DNA from: a virus
DNA length: 44,676 bases
Reading direction: 5' to 3' (one strand)
IMG/VR virus record: IMGVR_UViG_3300029957_000013
Coordinates: 1 to 44,676 of that record
Shown here: positions 5,684 to 21,327 of the stretch, one piece after another
Layout: the number at the start of each line of letters is the position of its first letter
Position numbering within the stretch: the stretch's first letter is position 1
Position numbers and translations under genes: made by a program
Notes under the pieces: generated by a model
Seen by the model: the letters and a program-made list of their open reading frames with translations, nothing else
Told to the model about the DNA's origin: nothing
Database searches by the model: none

Positions 5684-6253
5684 ATGACCCCGCGCCTCAA
5701 CCTGCCCGCCCTGCGCGACCGCCTCACGATCGCCACGGTGCTCCGCGCCCACGGCCTCGAGCCCAAGCACGGCCGCATGCCGTGTCCGCTCCATCGCGGC
5801 GAGAATCCGCAGGCGTTCTCGATCGCGTCATCCGGCAAGTTCGCGCGCTGCTGGGCGTGTGAGTTTGCCGGCGATGGGATCAGTCTGCAGCAGCAACTGA
5901 CCGGCGCGGACTTCCTGACGGCAGCGAGCGCCTGTGCGGCGATGGTGGGCATCGGGCCGGCGCCGAAGCTGCATCGCGAAACGCTCAGACGACTCCAGGC
6001 CGAGCGCGAGGCGGCGGCGCTCAGGGCTGAGCAGCAACACAACGCCGACCGTGCGCTGTTCGATGACCTGGCCAAGCGGCAGGTCGCAATCGAACACGAC
6101 ATGGACGCTCTCGGCGCGACCATGAAGCGCGCCCGGCGCGAGGGCTGGACCGACATCGAAGACGACGCGTGGACGCTCCTGGGCGAGCTGACCATGCGTC
6201 GAGACGTGGTGGATGAGGCGGTGGATCAATGGCGAGTCTGGATGAGCCGGTAA
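5684..6253 (+). CDS. CHC2 zinc-finger primase-like protein (zinc domain only)
   Basis: In this 189-residue protein C34-x2-H37 and C56-x2-C59, with the strand pair QAFSIASSGKFARCWAC, form the CHC2 zinc-binding domain of DnaG-type primases. No TOPRIM domain follows; residues ~95-189 are a charged helical region (many Glu, Arg and Ala). It likely recognises single-stranded DNA for primer synthesis together with the ATPase encoded next, which overlaps it by 25 bases. The split layout, with zinc finger and helicase on separate chains, is seen in several phage replication modules. Confidence 0.8.
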   Translation: MTPRLNLPALRDRLTIATVLRAHGLEPKHGRMPCPLHRGENPQAFSIASSGKFARCWACEFAGDGISLQQQLTGADFLTAASACAAMVGIGPAPKLHRETLRRLQAEREAAALRAEQQHNADRALFDDLAKRQVAIEHDMDALGATMKRARREGWTDIEDDAWTLLGELTMRRDVVDEAVDQWRVWMSR

Positions 6254-7476
6254 ACGGGCACACAAACGGCGTCGCCGCTTTGGCCACGCTGCCCGACCTA
6301 CCGGAGGAAGCCTGGGCGCCGCCGCTCGACCGCTACCGGGACTTGGTCTGTCGCGACTCTGAGGCGCCCGAAGCCTACCACTGGGCGTCGGCGGTGGTGC
6401 TAATCGGGCAGCTCTTCGGGCGGCGGGTATGCCAATACTACGCCGGCGACATCTTCCTGAACTTTCAGTTTGTCCTGATCGGTGCCACGGGCATCAAGAA
6501 GTCGACGCCGATCAACCTTGCACCGCGGCTCTTTCGCGAAATCTGCGACCGCGAAGGGGTTGGCACGCTCTGGGGCGTGTCGACCGGCGAGGGGCTACTC
6601 AGCAAATTCGCCGAGAACGAGGACACGCGGCTTGTCGTCTGCCTAAACGAACTGCGGGCGCTCTTTGTCCGGGCCAAGCGCGACGGCAATCAGCAACTGG
6701 GGTCGATCCTGATCGAGCTGATGGACGCCGGCGACAAGGTCGACAACCCGACCAAGTCCAACCCGATTACGGCGGTGCGGCCGTTCATGTCGCTGCTGTC
6801 GGCCGCCACACCTGAGAGCCTGGAGGACGCGATCAACGACAACGACGTCTATGGCGGGCTCCTAAACCGCATCCTACCCATCGGTGGCGTGCCTGGTGGC
6901 GCGCAGCCGTTTCCCGAGAAGCCCGACAGTATCGCGGTCAATGCCCTAGTCGGCGTCATCGACGACCTCGTGACGCGCTACGGGGGCCCGACGGAGATCC
7001 GGCTGGAGAAGAACAGTGACGCCGGCGAGCTGTGGGCAAGCTGGTATCAGCGCTATTACGAGCGGCAGACTGGCGGCGCGCAGCAAGACGGCCTGACGGC
7101 ACTCAGCCAACGCCAACACACGCACGTGCGGCGTCTGGCGCTGCTTTTCGCCGCACTCCGGGGCGCCACTAGGATCGACGTGGAGGACCTCCAGCGCGCG
7201 CTGACGCTGGTGCTGACCTACTTCCATCCGATTCTCGAGCGCGTCCTGCAGCCGATCACGGTCGATGCGCATAGGCGGTTGGATGTGAAGATCGAGCGGA
7301 TCTTGCGGGAGAAGCCGATGACGAAACGGCGGCTCCACCAGAAGCTGTCCGGGCGCATTAAGGGCGGCGACTTTCAGCGCGCGCTGTCCATCTTGATCGA
7401 CCTACAGAGCGTGGTCGAAGTGACCGACGGAATGGGCGGCAAGGTGATGCTCAAATGGTCGGACTCCGATGACTGA
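6229..7476 (+). CDS. DUF3987-like replicative helicase/primase-associated ATPase
   Basis: The 415-residue protein has a P-loop-like GATGIKKST at residues 85-93; Lys91 and Ser92 take the Walker A positions, with Lys in place of the usual second Gly. A strand ending in LVVCLNEL may be Walker B. The order DRYRD, WASAVVLIGQLFGR, P-loop, then FMSLLSAATPESL and NRILPIGG is that of DUF3987-type ATPases, which accompany primases in phage and plasmid replication. The C-terminal ~80 residues look like a winged helix (MTKRRLHQKLSGR, FQRALSILIDLQSVVEV). It sits between the CHC2 protein and the candidate origin, which supports a replication role. Confidence 0.75.
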   Translation: MASLDEPVNGHTNGVAALATLPDLPEEAWAPPLDRYRDLVCRDSEAPEAYHWASAVVLIGQLFGRRVCQYYAGDIFLNFQFVLIGATGIKKSTPINLAPRLFREICDREGVGTLWGVSTGEGLLSKFAENEDTRLVVCLNELRALFVRAKRDGNQQLGSILIELMDAGDKVDNPTKSNPITAVRPFMSLLSAATPESLEDAINDNDVYGGLLNRILPIGGVPGGAQPFPEKPDSIAVNALVGVIDDLVTRYGGPTEIRLEKNSDAGELWASWYQRYYERQTGGAQQDGLTALSQRQHTHVRRLALLFAALRGATRIDVEDLQRALTLVLTYFHPILERVLQPITVDAHRRLDVKIERILREKPMTKRRLHQKLSGRIKGGDFQRALSILIDLQSVVEVTDGMGGKVMLKWSDSDD

Positions 7477-7664
7477 TTTCACCCCGTCAACAATGGCGTC
7501 AACGGGGCGTCAACACGTGTTCAACTTGTTGACGGTGGTGACGCGAGTTGACGCGGGTTGTGTCAACCGAATTTCCACAATCCGGAATCCGGAATTTCCC
7601 TTTATATATATACACATACACACTCTCACACACACATAAGGGAGAGAAAGGTTGACGTGTTGAC
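7477..7664. other. Candidate replication origin: GTCAAC/GTTGAC motif cluster beside an AT-rich tract
   Basis: The hexamer GTCAAC or its complement GTTGAC occurs at 7486, 7498, 7509, 7528, 7547, 7562, 7651 and 7659, eight times in about 180 bases and in both orientations. Two TCCGGA palindromes 7 bases apart (7581, 7588) and two GAATTTCC copies (7569, 7592) follow. Then comes an AT- and CA-rich tract at 7600-7640 (TTTATATATATACACATACA), an obvious weak point in an otherwise GC-rich genome. Iterons plus a melting region next to a helicase gene are the classic form of a replication origin. An operator array is the alternative. Confidence 0.5.
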
Positions 7665-7757
7665 ATGGGGGTAGGCACCAATAGCGATTTAGGGGAAGAA
7701 TTGGCGATTCTGGCCCTTTTCTCTCTCCCTAGGGGCGACAACCGCCAACACGTCAAC
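7651..7757. repeat. 12-bp inverted repeat pair
   Basis: GTTGACGTGTTG at 7651-7662 is exactly repeated in reverse complement as CAACACGTCAAC at 7746-7757. Between them lies a second imperfect pair, AGGGAGAGAAAGG near 7638-7651 and CCTTTTCTCTCTCCCT at 7715-7730. The repeats extend the motif cluster into the start of the next ORF and may be protein-binding sites. Confidence 0.55.
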
Positions 7758-7982
7758 TCGGCGGTCCCCGAGCCGCCGACGGAGCCTGCGGTTGAGACAC
7801 CTCCGCCACTATCAATCGGGCGCAGCTTGACTGCCGACTTGCCCGCCACCTTCCCCGGCATCGCCGTCGCCCTCGACTACCGCCGCACCACCACCACCCC
7901 CGGCGGCATGGGGGCGTGGCGCTGCATGACGGACGAGGAACCGCCGGCGCTGCACGAGCAGGAGGAAACGCATGGCGAGTGA
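7665..7982 (+). CDS. Hypothetical protein of doubtful start
   Basis: A 105-residue frame begins inside the motif cluster without a visible ribosome site. Its middle is Pro- and Thr-rich and its end is acidic (EEPPALHEQEETHGE). No domain is recognised. Its 3' part overlaps the next gene by 11 bases and has coding-like composition. The real start could lie further in, leaving the first ~85 bases as part of the regulatory region. Confidence 0.4.
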   Translation: MGVGTNSDLGEELAILALFSLPRGDNRQHVNSAVPEPPTEPAVETPPPLSIGRSLTADLPATFPGIAVALDYRRTTTTPGGMGAWRCMTDEEPPALHEQEETHGE

Positions 7983-8358
7983 ACGACTGCCGTTTTTCAC
8001 CGATCCGAACGATTATCACGACGCGCGACACCACCTGCGCAGTGCATACTGGACCAGTGAGCAGCGCCTGGCGGCCGCCGTCCTTGCGACCGCCGTCGAC
8101 GACCTAACGCGCTGGACCACCAACGGTCAGACGCTTGAGTCGATGCGCGAGCTGCCCCGGCTGCAGGTGTGGATCTGGAGCCGTGAGGCGACCACGCCAT
8201 TCGGCTCACTCGGCGCGGTCTGCGTGCTCCTCGGGCTAGACCTCGGATATGTGCGTAGGCGGTTAGCGGAGGCGCAGGGAACGGCTGAGATTGCGCGCGG
8301 GGCGATGGACCCTGGAGTAGGGACGCCGGAGGTGCTGCGTGCAGCAGCGGGGCTCTGA
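7972..8358 (+). CDS. Hypothetical early phage protein
   Basis: The 128-residue, mostly helical protein contains SEQRLAAAVLATAVDDL, a middle with WIWSREATTPFGS, and VLLGLDLGYVRRRL near the C-terminus. This layout recurs in small phage and plasmid proteins near replication genes in GC-rich proteobacterial-type genomes, but has no assigned function. GAGGAAACGC before the ATG is a good ribosome site. It is the last well-supported gene before the exported block. Confidence 0.65.
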   Translation: MASERLPFFTDPNDYHDARHHLRSAYWTSEQRLAAAVLATAVDDLTRWTTNGQTLESMRELPRLQVWIWSREATTPFGSLGAVCVLLGLDLGYVRRRLAEAQGTAEIARGAMDPGVGTPEVLRAAAGL

Positions 8359-11197: not shown

Positions 11198-14113
11198 ATG
11201 GCGCGGCGGCAGGTCTGGTGGCTTGTCGCCGCGCTGCTGGTGGCGGGGCGCGCGTTCGCGTCCACGCCGACCGACGTCGGCGCGAGCTTCACGAGCAGCG
11301 GCGCCACGGGACAGCTTGCGGCCGACACCATCGCGGCGCGCGACCAAAACGCCAACGGACTGCCCAACTTCATCCGCCTCGACCACAACGCAACCGATGT
11401 CACGCCGAACCCGACCTGTGCCGCCTCGTGCAACACCGGGCAAGCCTGCCTGATCGACATCGACGAGTCGGCAACCGACACGTGGGTGCTGTGCGTCGGG
11501 ACGTCGGACTTCTTTCACATTCCGAACACCGGCACGTCGGTCATCGGCGATGCGAAGCTGCTCGTCGGCACCGGCGCGAATACGGGCGCGTATGTCGCGG
11601 TCACGGGCGATGTCACGATCAACGATTCCGGCGTCACCGCAATCGGCAGCGACAAGGTCACCGCGCCCATGGTCGCCTTCAACTACGCCGGCTCGGCGAG
11701 CGAAGGCGGACCCGCAACGACCGCACTCGCGCTGAATGCGAACCCGACCGACTGCTCGGCGACGCAGTACGCCACAGCGATCGCCGCCTCCGGCAATCTC
11801 ACGTGTGCGCAGCCGGCATTTTCCGATCTCTCGGGCAGCGCGACCGACGCGCAGATTCCGAACAGCATCACCGTCGACCTGGCGACCGCTGCAACCGCCT
11901 TGGCGGCCAATCCGACCGACTGTAGCGCGAGCCAATTCGCGACCACCATTGCCGCGAACGGCAACCTGACCTGCGCACAGCCCGCGTTCTCCGACCTGTC
12001 GGGCGCGGCCACCGCAGCGCAGATGCCGAGCGGCACGAATACCACCACGTGGACGATCGACGCGGACGCGACTGGCACCGAGCCGGCCAACGGCGCGGGC
12101 CTGAAGATCGAAGGCGGCTCGGGTGACATCACGATCACCTACGACGCAACCGGCAACGATCTGGAATTCACCGGCGCAACTGGCGGCTACACGTTTGACG
12201 CCACGATCACCGGCAACCTGACGGGAGCCGTGACGGGCAACGCCTCGACGGCGACGGCCTTGGCGGCAAATCCCACGGATTGCTCAGCCAACCAGTTCGC
12301 CACGACGATTGCGGCAAGCGGCAATTTGACCTGCGCGCAGGTGGCGTTCAGCAACCTCTCTGGCTCAGCCACTGACGCGCAAATCCCCGACAACATCACG
12401 GTCACGCTCGCCGCGACCGCCACCGCGCTTGCCGCCAACGGCACCAACTGCTCCGCCGGGCAATATCCGCTCGGCGTCGATGCGTCTGGCAATGTCGAGG
12501 GCTGCACGGCGGACCAGACCGGCGGCCCGTTCTCGTCGCTCACCAGCGGCACCAACACCGCCGCCGCCATGCTGGTCGGCTCGGGCGCCTCCCTCGGCAC
12601 CACGGGTACCGGCACCATCACCGCAAGCGAGGTGACCTGCACGGGCTGCGTATCCACGACCGAAGTGGCAAGCGGCGTCACGATCGACACGAAGTGGGAC
12701 ACCGCAGCGGAGATCAACGCGGCGACCACCGACGACGACTTCGTCACCCTGACCGGCACGCAGTCGATCAGCGGCAACAAGACCTTCAGTGGAACCGAGG
12801 TCTTCACCGCGGCCACGCTGCGCCCCCCGAATGGTTCGAGCGTGCCCGGCACCTGCACGGCTGGTGATGTCTACAACCTCCCAGCCGGCGGCCTCGGCGC
12901 GCGCCAGTACCTGTGCGTGGCGACCAACACATGGGCGGCCACAGACAACGCCTTCGGCTCGGAGATCGACGCAACCGAGATGGCGAACACGCTCACGTTC
13001 TCCGGCGCGCAGGTCATTGACCTGAACACGAACAGCGCGGCGATCAAGCTGCCGATCACGGCCAGTAGTCCGGCAAGTAACGGCGTCTTCGCCATCGATT
13101 CCACGTCTCCCTACGAGCTGAAGTGGTACGCGGGTGGCGCGGTGCAGCGCCCCTATCCGCTCCTGGCCGGCCGCAGTAGCGGCCAGACCCTTGCCGGCGG
13201 CAACACCAGCGACGGGAGCGACAACCAAGCCCTCAACACCTGCGCGGCGGGCGCCGTCAGCGACACACGCGGTGGCTGCATCCAGCACGAGGGGAACGAG
13301 GTCACCACCATCGGCGGCAGCCTGCTCCTGACCGCTGGTGACATCACGACTGGCGCCTTCAACGGCGACATCCTGCTCTACACCAACAACGGCGCGCTGT
13401 CGGTCTTCGGCGTGCCGGACTTCGGCGTCTACAACAACAATCGCGCCGGTTTCCAGGTCGCCTCGGGCGCGCTGCCGTCGTTCGATGTGTCGATCGGCGG
13501 CCAAGCGGCGCGCACGATCGGGCTCGAACGCCAGACGACGAGCAACACGGCTGGCAACGGTCTCACGATCAGTGCCAGCGCAGCGACCACGGGCGCCACC
13601 GACAAGAACGGCGGCACGCTGACGCTGCAGCCGGGTGTCCCGACCGGCCAGGGCAAGAGCCTCATCTCGCTGCAGACGCCGACCCGCGCGACCGCATCCG
13701 GCACGAGCGATCAGACGATGGTCGATCGGCTGGTGCTGGGCGGCAAGCGCATCCTGACCAACAACTCGGCGACCGCAGTGCTGAACGCGACGGCGGCAAG
13801 CGGGTCAACGGTTGCGGGCATCATCCACTACTCGGTGATCGTCACCAACGGCACCGATTACCAGGTCGAATCGGGGCAGGTGCATTACACCGGCGTCAAC
13901 AAGGCCGGCACGGTCACCTCGACAGTCACCGAGACGGCCGCGAGCACGCAGACGCTCTCGACGGGGACGCTCACCAGCGCCTGGACGATCGGCACCGCCA
14001 ATCCGGTGGTCGTGAGCGTCAATGCGAACTCCTCCCTGACCCCATCGACCGGCTATCCACTGCTGACGTTTTGGGTCGAGAACCTGGCTGACCAAGCGGT
14101 CGCTCTGCAGTGA
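11198..14113 (+). CDS. Large fibre-like repeat protein with signal peptide
   Basis: The 971-residue protein starts with a signal peptide (RQVWWLVAALLVAGRAFAS). A beta-rich body of Ala, Thr, Asn and Gly follows, typical of tail-fibre or adhesin shafts. Four related units start near 11741, 11909, 12269 and 12437, each beginning NPTDCSA or NGTNCSA and continuing with ASGNLTCAQ and FSDLSGSATDAQIP. The C-terminal third has GTLTLQPG- and SQTLSTGTL-like strands. The start at 11198 has GGAGG with 8-base spacing; the ATG at 11192 is too close to it. A signal peptide on a fibre is odd for a phage. Function is inferred as host binding. Confidence 0.7.
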   Translation: MARRQVWWLVAALLVAGRAFASTPTDVGASFTSSGATGQLAADTIAARDQNANGLPNFIRLDHNATDVTPNPTCAASCNTGQACLIDIDESATDTWVLCVGTSDFFHIPNTGTSVIGDAKLLVGTGANTGAYVAVTGDVTINDSGVTAIGSDKVTAPMVAFNYAGSASEGGPATTALALNANPTDCSATQYATAIAASGNLTCAQPAFSDLSGSATDAQIPNSITVDLATAATALAANPTDCSASQFATTIAANGNLTCAQPAFSDLSGAATAAQMPSGTNTTTWTIDADATGTEPANGAGLKIEGGSGDITITYDATGNDLEFTGATGGYTFDATITGNLTGAVTGNASTATALAANPTDCSANQFATTIAASGNLTCAQVAFSNLSGSATDAQIPDNITVTLAATATALAANGTNCSAGQYPLGVDASGNVEGCTADQTGGPFSSLTSGTNTAAAMLVGSGASLGTTGTGTITASEVTCTGCVSTTEVASGVTIDTKWDTAAEINAATTDDDFVTLTGTQSISGNKTFSGTEVFTAATLRPPNGSSVPGTCTAGDVYNLPAGGLGARQYLCVATNTWAATDNAFGSEIDATEMANTLTFSGAQVIDLNTNSAAIKLPITASSPASNGVFAIDSTSPYELKWYAGGAVQRPYPLLAGRSSGQTLAGGNTSDGSDNQALNTCAAGAVSDTRGGCIQHEGNEVTTIGGSLLLTAGDITTGAFNGDILLYTNNGALSVFGVPDFGVYNNNRAGFQVASGALPSFDVSIGGQAARTIGLERQTTSNTAGNGLTISASAATTGATDKNGGTLTLQPGVPTGQGKSLISLQTPTRATASGTSDQTMVDRLVLGGKRILTNNSATAVLNATAASGSTVAGIIHYSVIVTNGTDYQVESGQVHYTGVNKAGTVTSTVTETAASTQTLSTGTLTSAWTIGTANPVVVSVNANSSLTPSTGYPLLTFWVENLADQAVALQ
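11741..12478 (+). repeat. Degenerate 168-base (56-residue) repeats in the fibre gene
   Basis: Units begin at 11741, 11909, 12269 and 12437. The first-to-second and third-to-fourth offsets are exactly 168 bases; a 360-base gap between the second and third holds unrelated sequence. Each unit encodes the NPTDCSA...GNLTCAQ...SDLSGSATDAQ pattern with two Cys. Confidence 0.7.
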
Positions 14114-18098: not shown

Positions 18099-18743
18099 GT
18101 GTGGCGCTTCTCCGATATCAAGCTCCTGATCGCGACACTCTTCTTGCTGTCGCTCTTCGTTGCGATGCGCGCGCATGGCTTTTCGGGGCAGGGGTTCGAT
18201 TGTCAGGGCTGCGACAGCGGCGACCTATTGCCGACCCATACCGTCACGGACACCCCAACCGCGACCTTGACCCCCACGGCAACCGACACGCCGCCGGTGG
18301 GCTCGACCGCGACCAACACGGGGACGGTCACCAACACGCCGACCGATACCGGCACCGTGACCAACACCCCAACGCGCACCTTCACCAAAACGCCGACGCC
18401 GACGGCAACCAATACGAACACGCCGGTCGATACGAATACGGCGACGGCGACGTGGACCTATACGCGGACCGAGACACAGACGGTCACGGATACGCCGACC
18501 AGGACCGCGACGGCGACGTTCACGCCGCTACCGACCAACACGCCGACGCCGACGCCGCTTGCCAGCAATACGCCGACCGTGGGGACGCCCGGTATCACGC
18601 CGCGGCTCCTCTTCGGCATGGAGCGCTCGCGGCGCTTCGAGGTCGATCGGCGACGTGTATGGGATCGCGCCCAACCCGATCGGCAATTTTATGCGGAACG
18701 ACGGCACTGGTGGGAGTTCTCGCGACGGAGGTGGTTTGAATGA
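18099..18743 (+). CDS. Exported PT-repeat protein
   Basis: The 214-residue protein has an N-terminal hydrophobic segment ([20 protein letters not shown]) and a short Cys pair (DCQGCDSG). About 130 residues of Thr-rich PT/TNT/TAT repeats follow, like linkers in environmental-bacterial surface proteins. The last ~45 residues are Arg- and Trp-rich and look unlike the rest. In the +1 frame the same bases encode a better-looking end (see findings). GAGGTCATGA before the GTG is a good ribosome site. It may be a wall or surface anchor; function is unknown. Confidence 0.6.
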
Positions 18744-19545: not shown

Positions 19546-20030
19546 AATCCCCATCATACAAGCGCGGACGTGCTCGGGGTGAGCCTCGCCTCTCCGCACG
19601 ATGCATCCAAGCAAAGCTCGACGCGCATAAGGCGATGGAGCTGAAACTTGCCGGGAAGACGTGGCGCGCCATTGGCCGTGAGCTCAACCGCACCGCCGGT
19701 GCTGTCTTTAAGGCCGTCGACAACCTGTTGCGCGAAATGGACCAGGAGAAGCGCGAGATCCTGCGGGCGATCGAGAATGAACGACTGGACCGGATGCACG
19801 AGGCCATCTGGGAGCGCGTCGTCGCCGGCGAGGATGATGCGATTGAAATTGCCGTGAAGATCAGTGCGCGCCGCGCGCGCATGAACGGGCTCGATGCACC
19901 GGCGGTGCACGAGTTGAGCGGGCCGGGTGGCGGTCCGCTTGAGGTGGCGGAGGCGGATGCAACGCGACAAAAACTCGTTGATCGAATCGCTCGCGTCTCT
20001 GGACGCGACGACTCGACACGCGATCATTGA
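19542..20030 (+). CDS. terS: Terminase small subunit
   Basis: The 162-residue protein has a basic N-terminal region with a helix-turn-helix (LKLAGKTWRAIGRELNRTAG). A long coiled coil (DNLLREMDQEKREILRAIENERLDRMHEAIWERV) follows, then a segment like those in small terminases (AVKISARRARMNGLDAPA). Small terminases bind the pac or cos site and regulate the large subunit. The start overlaps the previous stop, and the gene overlaps the large terminase by 74 bases. Assignment comes from domain order and position. Confidence 0.8.
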   Translation: MKSPSYKRGRARGEPRLSARCIQAKLDAHKAMELKLAGKTWRAIGRELNRTAGAVFKAVDNLLREMDQEKREILRAIENERLDRMHEAIWERVVAGEDDAIEIAVKISARRARMNGLDAPAVHELSGPGGGPLEVAEADATRQKLVDRIARVSGRDDSTRDH

Positions 20031-21327
20031 CGAGCTGACCCCCGCCGAAGTCCGGTCGATCGCATTCGACTGGCACGCGTGGGCACGGCCAAAGCAGCTC
20101 GCGCCGGCGGGCGACTGGCGGATTTGGCTTCTGCTCGCCGGTCGCGGGTTCGGTAAGACGCGCTGCGGCGCCGAGCGGATTCGGTCGAAGATCGAAGCCA
20201 GCTTGTCGGGCCGCGTGGCGCTTGTCGCGCCGACCGCCGCCGATGCCCGCGATGTGATGGTCGAGGGCGAGTCTGGGTTGATGGCGATCTGCCCGCCATG
20301 GAATCGTCCGGTCTATGAGCCATCGAAGCGCCGGTTGACCTGGCCCAATGGCGCGACGGCCACCACCTATAGCGCCGATGAGCCTGAGCGCTTGCGTGGT
20401 CCGCAGCATGACGACGCGTGGGCCGATGAGCTTGCGTCGTGGCGCTATCCCGAGTCGTGGGACATGCTCATGTTCGGGTTGCGTCTGGGCGACAACCCGC
20501 AGTGTGTCGTCACCACCACGCCGAAGCCGGTGGCGCTGGTGCGCGATCTGGTGAAGCGTGAAGGCATCGACGTCGCGATCACGCGCGGGTCGACCTATGA
20601 GAACCGGTGCAACCTGGCGCCGGCGTTCTTTACGCAGATCGTCAGCCGATACGAAGGCACGCGACTTGGGCGGCAGGAGATTCATGCCGATGTGCTCGAC
20701 CAGGCGGAGGGGGCGCTGTGGAAACGTGAATGGTTCGATGCGCACCGCGTGACAGTTGCGCCCCCCTTGCGGCGCATCACAGTGAACATCGACCCGGCGG
20801 CCAGCAACACGACCGCGAGCGACGAGACGGGCATCACGGCAACGGGCGTCGGGGAAGATGGCCGCGGCTATCTGCTCGCTGACCGCAGCGGCCGCTATTC
20901 GCCTGACGGGTGGGCGCGAGCCGCGATCAGCCTCTGGGGCGAGCTCCGCGCCAACGTGATCATCGCCGAGAAAAACAACGGCGGGGACATGGTGACGAAC
21001 ACCATCACTATGACCGCCCGCGAACTCGCGCGCGAAGGCGTCATCTCAACCGCGTTCGTTCCCGTCGAAACCGTTTGGGCCTCGCAAGGTAAATTCGCGC
21101 GCGCCGAGCCCGTGTCGGCGCTGTACGAACAGGGACGTATCTCGCACGTCGGGACGTTCGCGCAGCTCGAGGACCAGTGTTGCACCTGGGAGCCGAACGG
21201 CGGCGAGCGGTCACCGGATCGGCTCGATTCGCTCGTGTGGGGCTTCACGGAGTTGATGGTCGAATCCATCGGGCCGACCGTTTCCCCCGACATTAGCATG
21301 ACCCGAACCAGTCCGTGGAGTTTCTGA
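19957..21327 (+). CDS. terL: Terminase large subunit
   Basis: The 456-residue DNA-packaging motor has a Walker A GRGFGKT at 62-68 and Walker B acidic residues at 157-158 (DDAWADE). A motif-III-like coupling segment (CVVTTTPKP) follows. The RNase-H-like nuclease has Asp279 (NIDPAAS), Glu338 (IIAEKNNGGD) and Asp424 (DRLDSLVWGF). It cleaves concatemers and pumps DNA into proheads. The ATG at 19957 is preceded by GGCGGAGGC; a GTG at 19927 is possible. The gene is complete and intact. Confidence 0.93.
   Translation: MQRDKNSLIESLASLDATTRHAIIDELTPAEVRSIAFDWHAWARPKQLAPAGDWRIWLLLAGRGFGKTRCGAERIRSKIEASLSGRVALVAPTAADARDVMVEGESGLMAICPPWNRPVYEPSKRRLTWPNGATATTYSADEPERLRGPQHDDAWADELASWRYPESWDMLMFGLRLGDNPQCVVTTTPKPVALVRDLVKREGIDVAITRGSTYENRCNLAPAFFTQIVSRYEGTRLGRQEIHADVLDQAEGALWKREWFDAHRVTVAPPLRRITVNIDPAASNTTASDETGITATGVGEDGRGYLLADRSGRYSPDGWARAAISLWGELRANVIIAEKNNGGDMVTNTITMTARELAREGVISTAFVPVETVWASQGKFARAEPVSALYEQGRISHVGTFAQLEDQCCTWEPNGGERSPDRLDSLVWGFTELMVESIGPTVSPDISMTRTSPWSF

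Follow-up and report, generated by a model that had tools for sequence, protein, structure and literature searches.

Organization of the locus

The window, by which we mean the whole stretch of DNA analyzed here (a virus record of 44.7 kb), carries an integrase at its left end and genes for terminase, portal and head morphogenesis at 19.9–23.5 kb. IMG/VR record 3300028558_000055 is 99.9% identical to it over positions 11198–44676 and reaches 6.4 kb beyond its right end, and the portal region is shared at 100% by two further records (L122 and L123). These matching records in other metagenomes indicate that the phage recurs across metagenomes and that the window is less than the full genome.

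A gene for a CHC2 primase overlaps the start of a DUF3987 helicase gene at position 6229, and a field of GTTGAC/GTCAAC hexamers follows. This is the position given in the original prediction, and its gene calls were right. The locus comprises the following features:

5684–6253, plus strand: CHC2 zinc-finger (DnaG-type) primase protein (PF01807, E = 5.5e-7; PHROG DNA primase families)
6229–7476, plus strand: DUF3987 helicase, candidate initiator (PF13148, E = 9.9e-16; PHROG helicase/primase)
7486–7567, mixed orientation: left iteron cluster, GTCAAC at 7486, 7498 and 7509, GTTGAC at 7528 and 7547, GTCAAC at 7562, one-mismatch copies at 7520 and 7537
7568–7650, no strand: AT-rich tract of lowest stability, a candidate unwinding element that contains the tandem TCCGGA palindromes (7581 and 7588)
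7651–7664, plus strand: right iteron pair GTTGACgtGTTGAC, exact hexamers at 7651 and 7659
7665–7982, plus strand: ORF of 105 aa, probably coding (codon-position GC 0.67/0.54/0.79)
7737–7757, minus strand: outlying iterons GACAAC, GCCAAC and GTCAAC, with 7746–7757 the exact inverted partner of 7651–7662

The field had been described as intergenic over 7477–7760, which holds for 7477–7664 but not beyond. The ORF that begins directly after the right iteron pair has a codon-position GC resembling that of the neighbouring genes, and no family match was obtained for it in Pfam-type and PHROG searches. Because this codon-position pattern is that of real genes, the true intergenic gap is probably just 7477–7664, and the iteron at 7752 therefore likely lies inside coding sequence, which counts against reading the array as an origin.

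The iteron array and the AT-rich tract

All nine exact hexamers that had been reported within about 280 bases are present, spanning 7486–7757 in both orientations (minus strand at 7486, 7498, 7509, 7562 and 7752; plus strand at 7528, 7547, 7651 and 7659). They make up 9 of the 32 GTTGAC/GTCAAC copies of the window in 0.6% of its length, where 0.147 copies are expected from the rate elsewhere in the window (Poisson, 8e-14). Across 200 Markov-1 genomes, no 284-bp segment held more than five. In a window-wide ranking of hexamers only ACGCCG, a common GC-rich word with 156 copies in the window, clusters more tightly. Neither a second GTTGAC array nor a comparable density was found in the rest of the window or in the 6.4 kb by which record 3300028558_000055 extends it, in agreement with the strong local excess that had been expected.

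One-mismatch iterons at 7520, 7537, 7737 and 7744 extend the array. When these are counted, the starts in the left cluster are about 8–15 bp apart, and mostly 9–12 bp, or approximately one helical turn. The predicted 12-bp inverted pair (7651–7662 and 7746–7757) is exact, and the tandem TCCGGA palindromes, likewise noted before, account for two of the three copies that the window has in all. The iteron clusters at 7486–7567 and 7651–7664/7757 flank an AT-rich tract at 7570–7649; by nearest-neighbour energy, no other 80 bp of the window are as unstable. The AT maxima of the window at 40–100 bp also fall within this tract, so that the strongly AT-rich stretch of the original prediction was recovered by both measures. 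A cluster of DnaA boxes was absent; one-mismatch boxes occur at 7571 and 7608, and the window has 15 of these vs 14.9 expected by chance. An Rfam search of the array region matched no family, and we did not find papers naming GTTGAC iterons at a phage origin in the literature.

GC skew had been proposed as a check on the origin. Plotted cumulatively, GC skew is highest in the whole window at 7713, a point within the array, and lowest at 18614, close to where the packaging genes begin. At 7713 the skew turns from G-rich to C-rich, whereas a usual bidirectional origin shows the opposite sign (a minimum). As the major genes run rightward, the sign may come from transcription or coding bias, and the skew is at most mildly against the origin reading.

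Predicted fold of the DUF3987 helicase

The DUF3987 protein was modeled by AlphaFold2 with an alignment of 25 sequences (pLDDT 76.6, pTM 0.73); a single-sequence model was discarded (pLDDT 34.5). At its C-terminus the model shows two helices and a wing made of two strands (395–399 and 406–410); this predicted winged helix covers residues of about 318–410. When the model was compared with the PDB using Foldseek, the top matches were all MCM helicase subunits (E down to 3.4e-11), at low sequence identity and a query TM of about 0.45. A match of the DUF3987 family profile extends to MCM7 as well; it covers the Walker A and C-terminal regions, each segment being weak by itself. We model the protein as an MCM-like AAA+ helicase with a C-terminal winged helix, which would be the expected reader of the iterons.

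Arrays in relatives and in other phages

Comparison with related phages had been suggested as a further check, and the motif does recur, beside primase-helicase genes of unrelated phages and in the neighbourhood of DUF3987 relatives, but most DUF3987 relatives are without the array. Among 23 such relatives GTTGAC ties as the commonest hexamer of mixed arrays (3 loci, vs a mean of 0.05 per hexamer), and these arrays sit 1.4–3.2 kb downstream of the helicase gene, not adjacent to it. The rest of the 23 lack a GTTGAC array, and near the gene it is absent from most DUF3987 relatives, among them Gordonia phage Jumbo, Rhodococcus phage ReqiDocB7 and Aeromonas phage P5. One locus with a DUF3987 gene and four hexamers (L051) was rejected as an array, its hexamers being repeats inside small genes near the helicase. 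No close relative of the early region was found by DUF3987 protein search, by blastn against phages or by an alignment scan of genome contigs. The records with 100% portal identity do not reach the array region, and eight portal-related records had no DUF3987 match.

We scanned contigs for three TGTTGAC words, which returned at least 120 contigs, as did the permuted control word TGATGTC (at least 120). Among the matches listed, 13 of 120 contigs have at least eight GTTGAC copies in an intergenic, mixed-orientation array, vs 0 of 120 for TGATGTC. Several of the 13 arrays stand at the 3′ end of primase-helicase genes of several types: VapE (L118, L192, L221 and L224), PrimPol with AAA_25 (L070) and DUF5906 (L214). 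A second scan added L463 (PrimPol-VapE) and L441 (PrimPol-AAA_25). An earlier triple scan for GTTGAC, whose matches were mostly due to chance or to repeats within genes, gave the array of L076 (VapE).

VapE genes were then chosen regardless of GTTGAC, an array being scored when a hexamer was repeated at least seven times in 480 bp around the stop codon. An array was present at 65 of 77 VapE stops, vs 2 of 883 control windows, and in an independent set of mostly Bacillota genomes at 52 of 76, vs 6 of 785 (the two sets have three identical proteins in common). The usual repeat words are TGTTACA, GTTTAC and GTTGAC, with GT-N(1-2)-AC as the general form, although 21 of the 77 and 28 of the 76 loci lack four copies of any such core. 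Among loci with an assigned core, the array has both orientations (54/54) and is AT-richer than its locus (55/55). At 49 of 55 VapE arrays the right side has the higher GC skew, a trend opposite to that at the DUF3987 array.

In marine-type contigs, mixed GTTGAC arrays occur upstream of terminase small subunit genes (PF03592) and away from primase genes (L414:2225–2374, L436:953–1156, L380:632–781, L452:3242–3583 and L465:4095–4314). These could be displaced origins or packaging sites; displaced origins are suggested by an AAA_25 ATPase encoded elsewhere in 10 of the 30 contigs whose arrays stand away from primase.

Comparison with known replicons

In phage P4 (NC_001609), seven GTTCAC hexamers in both orientations lie within 270 bp in crr, directly 3′ of the alpha primase-helicase gene; the annotated iteron is TGTTCAC(C/A), and the annotated rep_origin is about 4.5 kb from crr. 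The window has in common with crr the GT-NN-AC core, the mixed orientation and the position just 3′ of a primase-helicase gene. The P4 word differs by one base from GTTGAC, the iteron of the array here. P4 has separate ori and crr iteron regions, whereas a single array was found here, the 6.4-kb extension included. Other differences are that crr includes a direct repeat of 120 bp and that P4, a satellite, combines primase and helicase in one protein, alpha; the phage of the window encodes the two in separate genes and has a terminase and a portal of its own.

Origins of PICIs are located immediately 3′ of rep, with two iteron sets around an AT-rich region (PMC6092414). Compared by layout, the window resembles this pri-rep-ori arrangement: the putative origin is right behind the initiator helicase gene (stop at 7476, first iteron at 7486, i.e., 10 bp further), two iteron sets surround an AT-rich region and a primase gene is upstream. 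The C-terminal dsDNA-binding domain of SaPI/PICI initiators would correspond to the winged helix predicted in the DUF3987 model. SaPIs and PICIs are phage satellites, whereas the window encodes a terminase large subunit, portal and head genes, and thus has a putative PICI-like origin without being a PICI. In SCCmec, the helicase Cch2 uses its C-terminal domain to bind direct repeats that lie downstream of its own gene, and the same is described for SaPI Rep (PMC7581432). The architecture predicted here is thus one reported for mobile-element initiators, a likeness in both gene arrangement and proposed mode of binding; the Cch2 iteron is AAGTG in three copies, however, and Cch2 has a Primase_Cterm/D5-type helicase, not DUF3987. 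VapE-type prophage modules share AT-rich, mixed-orientation arrays at the stop codon, often of GTTGAC, but belong to another helicase family and have TGTTACA as their commonest core. In gene order, in the melting-prone tract between clusters and in the predicted C-terminal winged helix, the locus thus matches the P4, SaPI/PICI and SCCmec replicons.

A candidate origin and its alternatives

Region 7477–7760 is probably the replication origin of this phage or, failing that, the main site at which its initiator binds. It is best read as an iteron origin of the P4/SaPI/PICI kind, with a CHC2 primase, a self-recruiting helicase and iterons flanking an AT-rich tract. The comparison with other phages and replicons supports this interpretation. 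That the origin is bound by a phage initiator, as first proposed, gains support from layout, recurrence and the predicted winged helix; from these computed features and the computed weak duplex we infer binding, melting and initiation.

The simplest mechanism follows that of P4, SaPI/PICI and SCCmec. The DUF3987 protein would be a self-recruiting, MCM-like hexameric helicase, whose C-terminal winged helix would read the GTTGAC iterons just behind its own gene. Helicases assembled on both flanking clusters could melt the AT-rich tract, and the CHC2 primase, encoded just upstream, would prime the exposed strands. The comparison supports a known kind of origin, found here in a full phage rather than in a satellite, and with a putative MCM-like DUF3987 initiator. 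For this phage, in which the replication genes had carried just DUF and zinc-finger labels, there is now a specific candidate origin that can be tested.

The array might instead play an accessory part, as a site that binds the initiator in the manner of P4 crr or that controls copy number, with unwinding at another site. The P4 iterons 3′ of alpha do form crr, at a distance from the annotated rep_origin, and the sign of the GC skew at the array is unlike that of a classical origin. Since a single array was found in the window and in the 6.4 kb that record 3300028558_000055 adds, and the least stable DNA of the window is within that array, we regard this explanation as unlikely. The arrays upstream of PF03592 genes in several marine-type contigs bring to mind recognition of a packaging site (pac/cos) by the terminase small subunit, but these arrays may themselves be displaced origins, given the AAA_25 ATPases noted above. 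In the window the terminase large subunit gene (19927–21327) is 12 kb from the array and has none beside it, which makes a packaging role very improbable.

Even less credence is due to an operator or promoter, in which TTGAC words would serve as -35 boxes, or as repressor sites controlling the genes from 7665 on. GTTGACA does contain the sigma-70 -35 hexamer, and the ORF starts right after the right iteron pair; yet no sigma-70-like promoter was found in 7300–8000, an operator would not need as many as nine sites, in both orientations, flanking an AT tract, and the placement of arrays follows primase-helicase genes across phages.

Iteron type and the VapE C-terminal domain

Within VapE proteins, the variable position x of a C-terminal YGxQ[RK]G motif (residue 786 of L472) was the most iteron-associated of 597 columns in the first set (4.9 sd, overall identity allowed for). 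In the independent set the rank of this column fell to 20 of 590; with the sets pooled, it was first again. Covariation of the whole VapE C-terminal domain with iteron type was also tested, with a negative result. The residue at x is V or L with TGTTACA, T or I with GTTTAC, and R, K or Q with GTTGAC (L472–L551 and L577–L656). R/K/Q accompanied GTTGAC in 5 of 10 loci vs 0 of 36 for the other cores, and then in 5 of 9 vs 0 of 34 (Fisher, 2e-4 and 1e-4, uncorrected for relatedness). In each set, R/K/Q was confined to GTTGAC when the three common cores were compared, as had been predicted. These alignments are suggestive of a position that tracks iteron type in VapE. The R/K/Q pattern supports the C-terminal domain as the reader of the iterons, and it concerns VapE, not DUF3987.

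More speculatively, phage initiator helicases of unrelated fold (P4 alpha and VapE-type, PrimPol/AAA_25 and MCM-like DUF3987) may share mixed-orientation GT-N(1-2)-AC iterons that surround a melting tract and are recognized through a C-terminal winged helix, with x of the YGxQ[RK]G motif tuning the core in VapE; we put this forward as a tentative idea. An iteron pattern common to several phage helicase types is more interesting than a single new origin. An iteron that can be recognized beside a helicase gene would allow origins to be called by sequence in many uncultured phages, and would make origin choice by self-loading helicases directly testable.

GTTGAC arrays were also seen in two other settings. 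One (L386:902–1295) is directly upstream of a gene in which the N-terminal domain of ParB is fused to a DNA methylase and, on a weak match, to a possible intein. The other, in a virus record of 93 kb (L460:119–524), packs 18 copies of GTTGAC into 406 bp, alternating with related words, and looks unlike the other arrays.
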